A stretch of DNA of 64,000 bases from Veillonella montpellierensis DSM 17217 (lineage in GTDB: Bacteria; Bacillota; Negativicutes; Veillonellales; Veillonellaceae). Position numbers and translations under genes: made by a program. The notes under the pieces are model-generated. The model was not told where the DNA came from. It saw nothing but the letters and a program-made list of their open reading frames with translations, and made no database searches. Location of the stretch: the NCBI RefSeq assembly GCF_000426745.1, contig NZ_AUFY01000002.1, positions 1-64,000 on the forward strand, read 5' to 3'. Below are positions 51,961 to 55,743 of this stretch, piece by piece. The first letter of the stretch is position 1. Every line of letters starts with the position of its first letter.

Positions 51961-52458
51961 TTACACAACCTCCTGTAAAGTAGAAAGCATTGTTTTGTAT
52001 AATGCACGTACTGCTTGATTTCTTCGATCAGAACGCGTTGTTTCAATAAGACTAGTAAATGCGTCATGCATAAGCATTGCTTCTCGATGCGTCATACCTT
52101 TTGATTGTATCAATGTATATAATTCTTTATCAATATCATCTATTTCAATAAGTCGTTCCTGGTATAATTGTGTTTGTAAATCTTGTTGATACACTTCCTG
52201 GTTATTCATAGGTGCAGGAAGGTTTTTGTCAAGTTCAATAGGAATACGAGTAATACGAATATACCCTCCTAAGCCACGTCTTGATTCTACAATAAATCCT
52301 TTTTCATTAGAAAATCGAGTGCTCAATACATAACTAATCTGTGAAGGAGCACATTCTAATTTATCAGCCAATTCATTGCGTCGTAATATATTTTGTTCAG
52401 GATCTTCTGTTATTTTATCGAGTATAAATTGTTCAATTTTATCTGCCAAAATACTCAT
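51961..52458 (-). CDS. ctsR: Transcriptional repressor CtsR
   Basis: 165 residues from the ATG with AGGTG six bases upstream (a GTG three codons earlier also opens the frame). SILADKIEQFILDKI, a winged helix-turn-helix (RRNELADKLECAPSQISYVLSTRFSNEKGFIVESRRGLGGYIRI) with the glycine-rich wing thermosensor, and a C-terminal dimer domain. CtsR represses clp protease and heat-shock genes. Its normal control partners McsA/McsB and target ClpC are not next to it here. Confidence 0.93.
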   Translation of the reverse strand: MSILADKIEQFILDKITEDPEQNILRRNELADKLECAPSQISYVLSTRFSNEKGFIVESRRGLGGYIRITRIPIELDKNLPAPMNNQEVYQQDLQTQLYQERLIEIDDIDKELYTLIQSKGMTHREAMLMHDAFTSLIETTRSDRRNQAVRALYKTMLSTLQEVV

Positions 52459-52699
52459 ATCTATCACCTAACCTTAGAAAAAACTATTTTTGACTTTTTG
52501 TCTTTTATACTTAAAGTATAGGTAACTTAGTAATAAATGTCAACTCTATACAATCTTAAGACTATATATTTTACTTTTACCCAATATATGGTATGATAAT
52601 GAGTACCAATATACTATGTATATAGTTTATATAATTAAAGTATGTTACGATATGTCAATTATTATAGTTATAAAATCTATTTGAAAGGATGATATATCC

Positions 52700-53206
52700 G
52701 TGTCAGAAGCATTAGGACAGCACTTATTGATTGATTTTTATGCCTGTTTAGGCGAATCCGTATCATCTCCTATTTTATTACAAGAGAGCTTAGCTACCGC
52801 TATGGAAGTTGCTAATCAACATATTGATGAAATAAGTTGTCAAGTAATGGATGATGAAATTGTATTGATTGCTATTGCACCTCATTTTCACGTTTGTCTT
52901 CATACCTATCCAGAATTAGGGTATGTAGCAGTAGATATTTATGAATTTAATAACACCGTACCTGCTACGCTATTAATGAAAGAATTAAAACGTGCATTTC
53001 ATGCAGAAAAAGTAAAAGCTACTAGCATTCGTCGAGCTGATTTCGGTTCAGAACGAGATATGAAGCCTCGTCGTCGTACTACATTGACTGCATTAGGACG
53101 AGTTAATCGCACACGCATTCAAATTAAACAAACAGGGACAAAATTAAAATCAACCGGTACGAAAGTATTTAAAGCCATTACAAAGCAAAATAAAAAAAGA
53201 CAGTAG
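52700..53206 (+). CDS. AdoMet decarboxylase-fold protein lacking catalytic residues, basic tail
   Basis: 168 residues, GTG start with AAAGGATG 8 nt upstream. Residues 1-115 align with SpeH-type S-adenosylmethionine decarboxylase: ALGQHLLIDFYAC at the start, LHTYPELGYVAVDIY in the core. The pyruvoyl-forming Ser63 of the T. maritima enzyme is Phe63, catalytic Cys83 is Phe83, while His68 is kept. Self-cleavage and decarboxylation therefore look impossible. The last 50 residues are Arg/Lys/Thr-rich (KPRRRTTLTALGRVNRTRI and on), suggesting nucleic-acid or membrane-surface contact. Divergent from ctsR. Family fit is good; function is unknown. Confidence 0.7.
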   Translation: MSEALGQHLLIDFYACLGESVSSPILLQESLATAMEVANQHIDEISCQVMDDEIVLIAIAPHFHVCLHTYPELGYVAVDIYEFNNTVPATLLMKELKRAFHAEKVKATSIRRADFGSERDMKPRRRTTLTALGRVNRTRIQIKQTGTKLKSTGTKVFKAITKQNKKRQ

Positions 53207-53230
53207 ATTATTTCATCTACTGTCTTTTTT
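53193..53230. terminator. Bidirectional terminator
   Basis: AAAAAAGACAGTAGA and its complement with T runs on both sides. It overlaps the stop codon of the AdoMetDC-like gene and serves the convergent phosphatase gene too. Confidence 0.85.
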
Positions 53231-53234
53231 TATT

Positions 53235-53906
53235 TTAGGTGTAATCATTTTCCAAAATAACATCTAATACATCTAACGGTGTATCACATAGATATGTAGC
53301 ATTTGCTTTTTTTAATTCTTCTAATGTACCATATCCATATAATACACCAATCCCTTTGCAGTCGTATTCTTTAGCTGCATGCATATCATACATACGATCA
53401 CCAACCATATATTGAACGGTATAATTAGAATTAGATGGTAATAACTGATATGAGGCCTCTAATGCTGCATGCAAAATTCCATCTTTTCGAATAATACCTG
53501 TGTTATAATTAGCACCTTTAATCACATGAAAATATGATGCTAATTGAAAATGTTCTAATATTTCTCTGGCTTGTTCTTCTGGCTTAGCCGTTGCAACAGC
53601 CAGTATATAATTTTTCTTTCGTAAGGTAGATAACACATAAGGAATATCTTGATACACTTTATTTTCAAATTTTCCAATTGATACATATCGTTTTCTAAAT
53701 GCTTGATAATATATATGTGCTTCTGTATCATCCATATGACAATGCTCTTTAAATGAATCGACAATAGGAGGTCCAATAAATAAATTTAAAATGTCATTAG
53801 TAGGAATTGGTAAATCTCCACTTTCTAGAGCTGATTTTATAGAGTTCTTTATGCCCTCTGCGGAATCAGTTAATGTGCCATCTAAATCAAATACAACTAA
53901 CTTCAT
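53235..53906 (-). CDS. HAD-superfamily phosphatase (phosphoglycolate phosphatase-like)
   Basis: 223 residues from the ATG preceded by GGAGTAAGG; the longer frame reads back into msrAB. HAD motif I FDLDGTLTDSAEG, motif II ATAKPEEQAREIL, motif IV VGDRMYDMHAAKEYDCKGIGVLYGYG with a helical cap between. Such PGP/YjjG-like enzymes act on small phosphoesters; the substrate cannot be told. It begins 5 bp after the msrAB stop, so the two share a transcript. Confidence 0.88.
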   Translation of the reverse strand: MKLVVFDLDGTLTDSAEGIKNSIKSALESGDLPIPTNDILNLFIGPPIVDSFKEHCHMDDTEAHIYYQAFRKRYVSIGKFENKVYQDIPYVLSTLRKKNYILAVATAKPEEQAREILEHFQLASYFHVIKGANYNTGIIRKDGILHAALEASYQLLPSNSNYTVQYMVGDRMYDMHAAKEYDCKGIGVLYGYGTLEELKKANATYLCDTPLDVLDVILENDYT

Positions 53907-53910
53907 GTCC

Positions 53911-54897
53911 TTACTCCTTACTAGTAAATAAAGGTAATAAATAACCATAGCCTTCTTCTTCTAACTTATCCAAAGGAATAAATCGTAAAGCAGCCCCATT
54001 AATACAATATCGTTTACCACCTAATTCAGAGGGACCATCATCAAATACATGACCTAAATGTGCATTACCTACTCTGCTTTTTACTTCTGTACGAACCATG
54101 TTATGTGATGTATCACGTGAATAAATAACTACATCATTACTAATGCTTTTAGAAAAACTAGGCCAGCCACAATGACTATCAAATTTATCATTTGAAGAAA
54201 ATAGAGGTTCTCCTGTTGTAATATCTACATAGATGCCTGGTAACATATTTTGATAATATTCACTAGAAAATGGTGGTTCGGTTCCATTTTCTTGTGTTAC
54301 ATAATAGGACCAATTAGGTAAAGTGTCTTTCAGTGTAGTTATATCAGGACATGTATATTCATCTTTGATAATCAATGGTTCATTCATAATAGTTTGTGGA
54401 ATATGGCAATAGCCATGAGGGTTTGCTGCCAAGTATGATTGATGATAGTCTTCTGCCTTATAAAAGTTTTCTAGGGGAGCCACTTCGACAACAATAGGAT
54501 CTTTATATAGAGAACTTATATGTGAACACATGGCTGTAATTGTATCAACATCCTTTTGATCTATATAATAAATACCTGTTCTATATTGACTTCCTATATC
54601 ATTACCTTGTCGATTTATACTAGTGGGATCAATAATTCGAAAGTAATAATGTAATAAACGATATAAACTAATATGGGATGGGTTATAGATTACCTTTACA
54701 GTTTCTGCAAATCCCGTTGTATCTGTGCAAACTTCCTCATACGTAGGATGATTAGTTATGCCATTTGCATAGCCAACCTCGGTTTCTATAACACCATATA
54801 TACGTTGTATATATGCTTCTACACCCCAAAAGCATCCTCCAGCTAAATAGATGATACGATTATCATTTGCTGTATCTATTTTTTTCATTCTACTCAT
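53911..54897 (-). CDS. msrAB: Bifunctional methionine sulfoxide reductase MsrA-MsrB
   Basis: 328 residues. An N-terminal MsrA domain (GGCFWGVEAYIQRIYGV with the catalytic Cys near residue 22, GYANG, GSQYRTGIYY), then MsrB (HCGWPSFSKSI, NAHLGHVFDDGP and the catalytic Cys in KRYCINGAALRF). The fusion reduces both S- and R-sulfoxides. The CxxC pairs of zinc-type MsrB are not obvious. No signal peptide, so cytosolic. AGGAGG lies 5 nt before ATG. Confidence 0.95.
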   Translation of the reverse strand: MSRMKKIDTANDNRIIYLAGGCFWGVEAYIQRIYGVIETEVGYANGITNHPTYEEVCTDTTGFAETVKVIYNPSHISLYRLLHYYFRIIDPTSINRQGNDIGSQYRTGIYYIDQKDVDTITAMCSHISSLYKDPIVVEVAPLENFYKAEDYHQSYLAANPHGYCHIPQTIMNEPLIIKDEYTCPDITTLKDTLPNWSYYVTQENGTEPPFSSEYYQNMLPGIYVDITTGEPLFSSNDKFDSHCGWPSFSKSISNDVVIYSRDTSHNMVRTEVKSRVGNAHLGHVFDDGPSELGGKRYCINGAALRFIPLDKLEEEGYGYLLPLFTSKE

Positions 54898-55028: not shown

Positions 55029-55298
55029 ATGAAATCTACTACAACTATAAATTACTGTCTTAGAGATACTCATACTAAAATATGCACTTGTCGTGGCATC
55101 ACTACGTATACGATAAAAAAAGCTATCAATCAAGGCGCATGTACAATGAAACAAATTCAATCACAAACTGGTGCTACGTTAGGAATGTGTAAAGGTAAAT
55201 ATTGTGCCGCTAAGATTGTAGCGTTACTAAAAGAAGCTAATGTACTTCCCTATCAAATAAAAGACAGTGAGGAATATGATTCAAATAATACACCATAG
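55029..55298 (+). CDS. BFD-like [2Fe-2S] protein, first copy
   Basis: 89 residues. CTCRGITTYTIKKAINQGACTMKQIQSQTGATLGMCKGKYCAAKIVALL carries the four-cysteine pattern C-x-C...C-x4-C of the bacterioferritin-associated ferredoxin (BFD)/NirB/NasA-type domain that binds [2Fe-2S] with helix-turn-helix geometry. Start at ATG after GAAAGAAATATT, a weak site. Divergent from msrAB, tandem with a paralogue 220 bp downstream. Possible electron donor for iron release or an amine/nitrite enzyme, but none is adjacent. Confidence 0.8.
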   Translation: MKSTTTINYCLRDTHTKICTCRGITTYTIKKAINQGACTMKQIQSQTGATLGMCKGKYCAAKIVALLKEANVLPYQIKDSEEYDSNNTP

Positions 55299-55518: not shown

Positions 55519-55743
55519 ATGGATTTTGAAACACAAACTATTCCAGACAGTATTTTAGACAAGTATACAAAAGTTTGTACTTGTCGGAGTATTAGTCGTA
55601 AAACATTAAAAGAAGCCATTCATAATGGTTGCACATCAATTCCACAAATTAAAGAACAAACACGTGCTATGACGGGTTCTTGCAAAGGTAAAAATTGTGC
55701 TAGTAAAATTGTTGCTTTGCTGAAAGAAATGGATGCATTATAA
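55519..55743 (+). CDS. BFD-like [2Fe-2S] protein, second copy
   Basis: 74 residues; CTCRSISRKTLKEAIHNGC...TGSCKGKNCASKIVALLKEMDAL has the same four-cysteine pattern as the gene before it. Well-placed AGGAG precedes ATG. It has its own upstream region of 220 bp, so independent expression is possible. It ends before a strong terminator, in front of the convergent suf operon. Identity to the first copy is roughly half by eye, consistent with an old duplication. Confidence 0.82.
   Translation: MDFETQTIPDSILDKYTKVCTCRSISRKTLKEAIHNGCTSIPQIKEQTRAMTGSCKGKNCASKIVALLKEMDAL

Follow-up and report, generated by a model that had tools for sequence, protein, structure and literature searches.

A SpeH-derived pseudoenzyme family with a conserved basic tail in the Negativicutes

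A short gene of Veillonella montpellierensis DSM 17217 encodes a member of a real and conserved pseudoenzyme family which, as far as was searched, is unreported, the SpeH fold itself being known. The gene lies in a 64,000-nucleotide stretch (positions 1 to 64,000 of contig NZ_AUFY01000002.1), hereafter the window. The family is usually single-copy and class-wide in the Negativicutes and descends almost certainly from a SpeH-type AdoMet decarboxylase (AdoMetDC) with repeated loss of catalysis. Our preferred reading, with a probability of about 0.6, is that the protein descends from SpeH, is non-catalytic and owes its conserved function to its fold and its tail, ligand sensing being left aside. 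Taken separately, a non-catalytic nature of the retained function is highly probable, the tail is probably a working surface and the sensing of SAM or a polyamine by the pocket is doubtful. The features on which the analysis rests are listed below in window coordinates.

52700..53206, + strand: gene of the tailed SpeH-derived pseudoenzyme, 168 amino acids, GTG start and TAG stop, with PF02675 and TIGR03330 profile matches
52700..53035, + strand: AdoMetDC (SpeH) fold, residues 1-112, from PF02675 over residues 8-112, AlphaFold and a match to 1tlu/1vr7 at Z 17.3
52886..52888, + strand: codon 63 (ttt), Phe in the column of the pyruvoyl-forming Ser
52946..52948, + strand: codon 83 (ttt), Phe in the column of the catalytic Cys
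53009..53071, + strand: class-wide motif, residues 104-124, KVKATSIRRADFGSERDMKPR in the window protein, with mean pairwise identity 0.574
53036..53203, + strand: basic tail, residues 113-168, pI 12.0, model pLDDT blocks 52-61
53188..53235, no strand assigned: terminator-like inverted repeat, common to the convergent HAD gene and overlapping the 3' end of the open reading frame
51961..52467, - strand: ctsR, divergent neighbour of the tailed SpeH gene, PF05848 match of 101 bits

The window protein matches Pfam AdoMet_dc (PF02675) over residues 8-112 (E 4.4e-17, 62.8 bits, cut-off 25) and shares the AdoMetDC fold, but its match to the NCBIfam equivalog of the SpeH type, TIGR03330 (E 1.6e-16, 60.6 bits), stays below the curated cut-off of 75.65. 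Residues are numbered by profile alignment, positions 63 and 83 being the columns of T. maritima Ser63 and Cys83. The initial annotation of this DNA had described a SpeH-type protein in which Ser63 and Cys83 are both replaced by Phe and His68 is kept, and the PF02675 profile together with codons 63 and 83 bears this out; His64 is retained as well, and the two residues missing are those expected of a SpeH-type AdoMetDC. Phenylalanine at residue 63 is chemically unable to form a pyruvoyl group. The Arg/Lys-rich tail that had also been pointed out is equally real, residues 113-168 holding 17 Lys or Arg against 3 Asp or Glu (pI 12.0) and residues 1-112 having a pI of 5.03. This tail is longer in the window's family than in most others and contains, at 53102-53203, T-G-x-K repeats (QTGTKLK, STGTKVF). 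The inverted repeat at the end of the gene displays T-runs on both strands, the one on the - strand belonging to a predicted terminator call and the one on the + strand being read from the sequence.

Orthologues sharing 57-67% identity are present in all 13 other genomes of the genus (14/14 with its own), which places the tailed SpeH family well beyond chance. Matches to the family profile occur in 28/28 genomes of the family, 59/61 of the order (53/53 good genomes) and 357/380 of the class Negativicutes (228/234 good genomes); since the class profile includes the SpeH domain, some of these 357 genomes could hold another SpeD, and a few carry two matches. Direct reading of the tail was confined to 153 genomes, whose tailed members, one per genome, were aligned. 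Drawn from the 380, this sample takes in every one of the 28 genomes of the family, a range of the other families and, by design, many genomes that lack SpeD; proportions among the 153 are not class frequencies. A scan of 84,980 species for the pattern GDFGS[EIV]xDM returned 87 stretches, 55 of them encoding relatives, and none of the 55 is labelled outside Bacillota; 52 belong to taxa that we take to be Negativicutes and the other three are labelled Bacillota only. The taxa include Veillonella ratti, V. seminalis, V. magna, V. intestinalis, Megasphaera, Anaeroglobus and Colibacter, as well as Phascolarctobacterium, Acidaminococcus, Anaerovibrio, Propionispira, Pelosinus, Propionispora, Anaerospora, Lucifera and others. 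The pattern is blind to tails written otherwise and does not recover the window's genus, and records close to the window are possibly absent from the scan. One genome (G368) encodes an untailed SpeH (L118, G368:C5:129251-129571), left out of the 153 and used as the outgroup of the gene tree, along with a second PF02675 copy (G368:C36:1028-1348) and no E. coli-type SpeD; a genome of the same genus, G367, encodes an intact tailed SpeH (L098).

Ser63 is kept in 30 of the 153 tailed proteins and lost in 123, where residue 63 has become Gly (79), Cys (16), Phe (14), Ala (8), Thr (4), Val (1) or His (1); the Cys63 or Thr63 forms (20/153) might still self-process. The extent to which the losses are conserved depends on phylogenetic depth. 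Phe63 and Phe83 are found together in 14/14 genomes of the genus, and Cys83 is replaced by Phe in 49/49 sequences examined in the window's order, of which eight still possess Ser63, but 19 of the 153 proteins, on deep branches, combine the tail with the complete Ser63, His68 and Cys83 set. Such retention by orthologues had been regarded by the initial annotation as a sign of local decay. It does exist at depth, but the losses recur on the tree and the Veillonella copies are under purifying selection, so that local decay is not the explanation. In a rapidly built gene tree (110 rows, columns 63 and 83 removed, 36 of 107 inner branches below 80), the state at residue 63 changes at least nine times between Ser and not-Ser and that at residue 83 at least 11 times between Cys and not-Cys, counts which do not separate gain from loss.

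A divergent ctsR, as claimed for the window and confirmed there by the Pfam match, adjoins the tailed gene in 22 of the 153 loci (recognized by motif, within the flanks examined). Fourteen of these loci encode the Phe63/Phe83 form of the window's genus, four Ser63/Phe83, one Cys63/Cys83 and three the deep-branching Ser63/Cys83 form. Dead and intact forms are orthologous by this synteny. Enzyme and pseudoenzyme descendants can thus be traced as orthologues, partly at one shared locus, which is a rare case, and the intermediate states are extant, with Ser63 kept and Cys83 lost or the reverse.

Of the segments compared, the most conserved lies outside the active-site strands. Mean pairwise identity, computed over 4000 random pairs, amounts to 0.304 for residues 5-103, 0.483 for the core strands (residues 62-83) and 0.574 for residues 104-124, which are therefore conserved above the active-site strands. 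The class consensus of this segment reads K-x-T-x3-RGDFG-x3-DMKPK, with Thr108, Arg112 and Pro123 at 0.99-1.00 conservation; the window protein has Ala113 where the class has Gly (RADFG-SER-DMKP). The tails are basic in 153/153 proteins, with a net charge of at least +4 and a median pI of 11.66, the domain median being 5.87.

The dead decarboxylase fold proposed earlier is supported by an AlphaFold model of the window protein (39 aligned proteins), in which pLDDT blocks are mostly 91-96 in the domain, with lower values at the N-terminus (72) and around residues 81-90 (83), and 52-61 in the tail. Across both AlphaFold models, which are monomer predictions, tail blocks range from 44 to 61, and the tail of the window protein is probably flexible. 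The top solved-structure matches of the model are those of T. maritima AdoMetDC (Foldseek E 8.2e-11), with Z 17.3 and an rmsd of 2.7 over 116 residues in a VIA comparison. This enzyme, TM0655, is a SpeH-type protein of class 1b (1tlu, 1vr7, 1tmi) that the window protein resembles in fold over residues 2-118, at 23% identity, and in His68; the synteny-linked Negativicutes orthologues even hold Ser63, His68 and Cys83. The window protein differs from it by Phe63 and Phe83 and by the DMKP motif and basic tail, which extend beyond profile position 118, where the match to solved AdoMetDC chains stops.

These data place the family among the descendants of a SpeH-type AdoMetDC, with a conserved basic tail added to the fold. 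The SpeH domain would form a compact, probably dimeric platform, perhaps with a remaining affinity for SAM, decarboxylated SAM or a polyamine, and would present the RGDFG-x3-DMKP motif together with the basic tail to a partner, be it a nucleic acid, the ribosome or a protein. The charge and conservation of the tail suggest nucleic-acid binding as a candidate activity. More tentatively, the tailed SpeH of the class ancestor may already have had a second job performed through its RGDFG/DMKP tail; catalysis would then have been dispensable and lost repeatedly, and the second job would have kept the protein after loss of the spermidine pathway, as a class-defining regulator or structural factor.

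The platform might equally be a bare one, a ligand-free dead domain that dimerizes and exposes a pair of basic tails to DNA, RNA, the ribosome or a membrane. Just 38% of alignment rows have Glu at residue 72, which we take to be the position of the ribose-binding Glu in T. maritima AdoMetDC, and this is in keeping with an empty pocket. The model also resembles human spermine synthase chain 3c6k_C (Z 11.2 over 3c6k_C residues 5-120, VIA), whose N-terminal domain is associated with dimerization (PMC11203672). We nevertheless consider such a pure scaffold unlikely, as the pocket face is better conserved than a mere scaffold would appear to require: over 154 rows, including one untailed SpeH, column conservation reaches 0.97 for His64, 0.93 for His68 and 0.99 for Asp79, as well as 0.99 for both Asp12 and Cys16.

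The same conservation may be taken to mean that the protein is still an enzyme, running a pyruvoyl-free reaction on SAM or another amino acid with His64, His68, Asp79, Asp12 and Cys16, joined by Cys83 in many other lineages. Since 68 of the 123 Ser63-lost proteins retain Cys83 and His64, His68 and Asp79 stand at 93-99%, some pyruvoyl-free chemistry is possible, and the SpeH fold bears a weak structural resemblance to a phage SAM lyase (6znb, Z 7.5), which may merely reflect a common arrangement. However, Cys83 is Phe throughout the 49 sequences of the window's order, and Cys16, His64, His68 and Asp79, which T. maritima AdoMetDC has too, may be structural. In that enzyme, Ser63, His68 and Cys83 are described as indispensable for self-processing and as taking part in catalysis (PMC10407285). 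A retained enzymatic function is accordingly regarded as improbable, and the non-catalytic reading is preferred.

The genomic distribution of the spermidine pathway bears on another proposal of the initial annotation, a partnership with an active enzyme in the manner of the trypanosome prozyme, in which the tailed protein would bind and control the E. coli-type SpeD of the same cell. A genome search did find a catalytically intact-looking SpeD in V. montpellierensis, of 258 amino acids (G000:C3:39589-40326), with DKSHLTVHTYPE (the DKSH stretch) and DVSTCG intact, and the genome also encodes the spermidine synthase speE, so the cell need not rely on the tailed SpeH for decarboxylated SAM. An E. 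coli-type SpeD is encoded in 28/28 genomes of the family and 224/380 of the class, and a speE match occurs in 312/380 class genomes, 300 of them above cut-off (nine weak matches were scored as absent). The coexistence of both proteins here and throughout the family, and the precedent of the prozyme itself (PMC5201418), speak for such a partnership. But 35 of the 153 genomes keep a dead tailed protein while lacking both SpeD and a speE above cut-off; Ser63 is lost in all 35, 21 of these genomes are at least 95% complete and the tailed protein is their sole PF02675 match. A prozyme role therefore cannot explain the class-wide retention. The SpeD encoded here also belongs to another subfamily, of the TIGR03331 rather than the TIGR03330 type. 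Moreover, Ser63 is kept mostly alongside SpeD (28/30 Ser63-bearing genomes), so its loss does not simply follow the possession of SpeD; with speE present in 30/30 of the same genomes, this association fits an active ancestor. The partnership is thus disfavoured and very unlikely as a general account, a lineage-specific prozyme role within Veillonella being possible.

A weak, below-cut-off speE match is present in three of the 35 genomes (G150, G232, G291). A profile search for nspC covering 46 genomes, the 35 included, gave among the 35 six matches above cut-off and one just under it (G158), the remaining 28 having neither (29 without an above-cut-off match); from their sequences, these 28 genomes appear to show no sign of the SpeD, speE and nspC routes to spermidine. 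In a further 34 of the 153 genomes, a speE match occurs without an E. coli-type SpeD and the sole PF02675 protein is the tailed one, with Gly63 in 33 and Ala63 in G043; among nine such genomes searched, nspC is above cut-off in G301, G305, G319, G323, G061, G074 and G118 and not in G213 and G221. Vpar_0438 appears in a passage of a dual RNA-seq paper (PMC6529473), and its chromosomal position makes it more likely to be the E. coli-type SpeD than the tailed SpeH.

The dead domain is maintained, not decaying, as indicated by low dN/dS in the Veillonella lineage. Nine of 14 pairs were computable, all of this lineage (five Phe63/Phe83, four Cys63/Phe83), and gave values of 0.013-0.164, which are a rough guide, most synonymous distances being near or at saturation; the other five pairs, including all three of Megasphaera type, were saturated at synonymous sites. 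From these sequence comparisons, the Veillonella copies are under purifying selection in both domain and tail. A redundant AdoMetDC gene in the course of being lost, which the recurrent active-site losses could evoke, is contradicted by this selection and by near-universal retention (14/14 in the genus, 28/28 in the family, 59/61 in the order, 357/380 in the class) and is exceedingly improbable.

The genomic neighbourhood was also considered. A conserved operon was rejected as a clue to function, the eight largest neighbour clusters covering 20-27 of 150 distinct target sequences each, antisense frames included, and the ctsR cluster 21; flanks were about 1.5-3 kb and often ended by contig ends. 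Being found at merely 22/153 loci, the ctsR neighbour is no general clue to function. A direct repeat resembling the CtsR box, GTCAAA-N2-4-GTCAAA, precedes ctsR in 13 of 23 distinct stretches (e.g. L005, L006), with a spacer of two bases, or four in L110, and may point to autoregulation of ctsR. It is absent upstream of ctsR in the window, and for this reason no membership of the CtsR regulon is claimed for the tailed gene. A riboswitch or structured leader was likewise discarded, Rfam at gathering scores detecting rRNA and tRNA only, in five of 20 loci. At these five loci (L082, L098, L109, L080, L085) the gene is near rRNA genes, which may explain the many contig ends there. Elsewhere in the window, 53911-54897 (- strand) presumably encodes fused methionine sulphoxide reductases A and B, and 55029-55298 and 55519-55743 encode adjacent, similar small proteins with repeated Cys motifs that we assume may be a tandem BFD-like iron-sulphur pair.

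Several known descendants of AdoMetDC invite comparison. The trypanosome prozyme (5tvm, 5tvf) is a dead AdoMetDC acting as a regulator (PMC5201418), and resembles the window protein in being a dead homologue whose cell also makes an AdoMetDC that is active, or here intact-looking (SpeD). A prozyme-type partner would be expected only alongside an active counterpart; the tailed family is SpeH-derived, has an added basic tail and persists in the 35 genomes where no other AdoMetDC was found. The arginine and ornithine decarboxylases SpeDA and SpeDC have left AdoMetDC activity behind and use a pyruvoyl derived from Ser63 (PMC10407285). Most of the tailed family too would have moved past AdoMetDC activity, but residue 63 is not Ser in 123 of the 153 proteins, the usual residues being Gly, Cys, Phe and Ala, and the window protein, having Phe63, falls outside AdoMetDC, SpeDA and SpeDC, which all rely on that group. 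Fusion proteins of Victivallis vadensis contain a dead C-terminal SpeD domain that has also lost its active-site residues (PMC10407285), whereas the tailed protein is not a fusion. The N-terminal domain of human spermine synthase (3c6k) provides a SpeD-like fold in a non-AdoMetDC setting, but as a domain of a larger enzyme, and no such basic tail is mentioned in the available text of its description (PMC11203672). Among the matches listed in the open-access literature, there is no account of a SpeH pseudoenzyme family in the Negativicutes, and a text search of the main text of PMC10407285 returned no mention of Negativicutes, Veillonella, Firmicutes or Bacillota.

Naming these proteins AdoMetDC from PF02675 only would mislead in the Negativicutes and distort the polyamine pathways drawn for oral and gut Veillonella, Megasphaera and Phascolarctobacterium. 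In members of the class the peptidoglycan carries cadaverine or putrescine modifications (PMC10628300), and a link between them and the tailed protein would be speculation. If the pocket still reads SAM or polyamines, the family would add a new, metabolite-responsive kind to the proteins that bind nucleic acids or the ribosome. Its wide retention predicts an important function in diderm Firmicutes.
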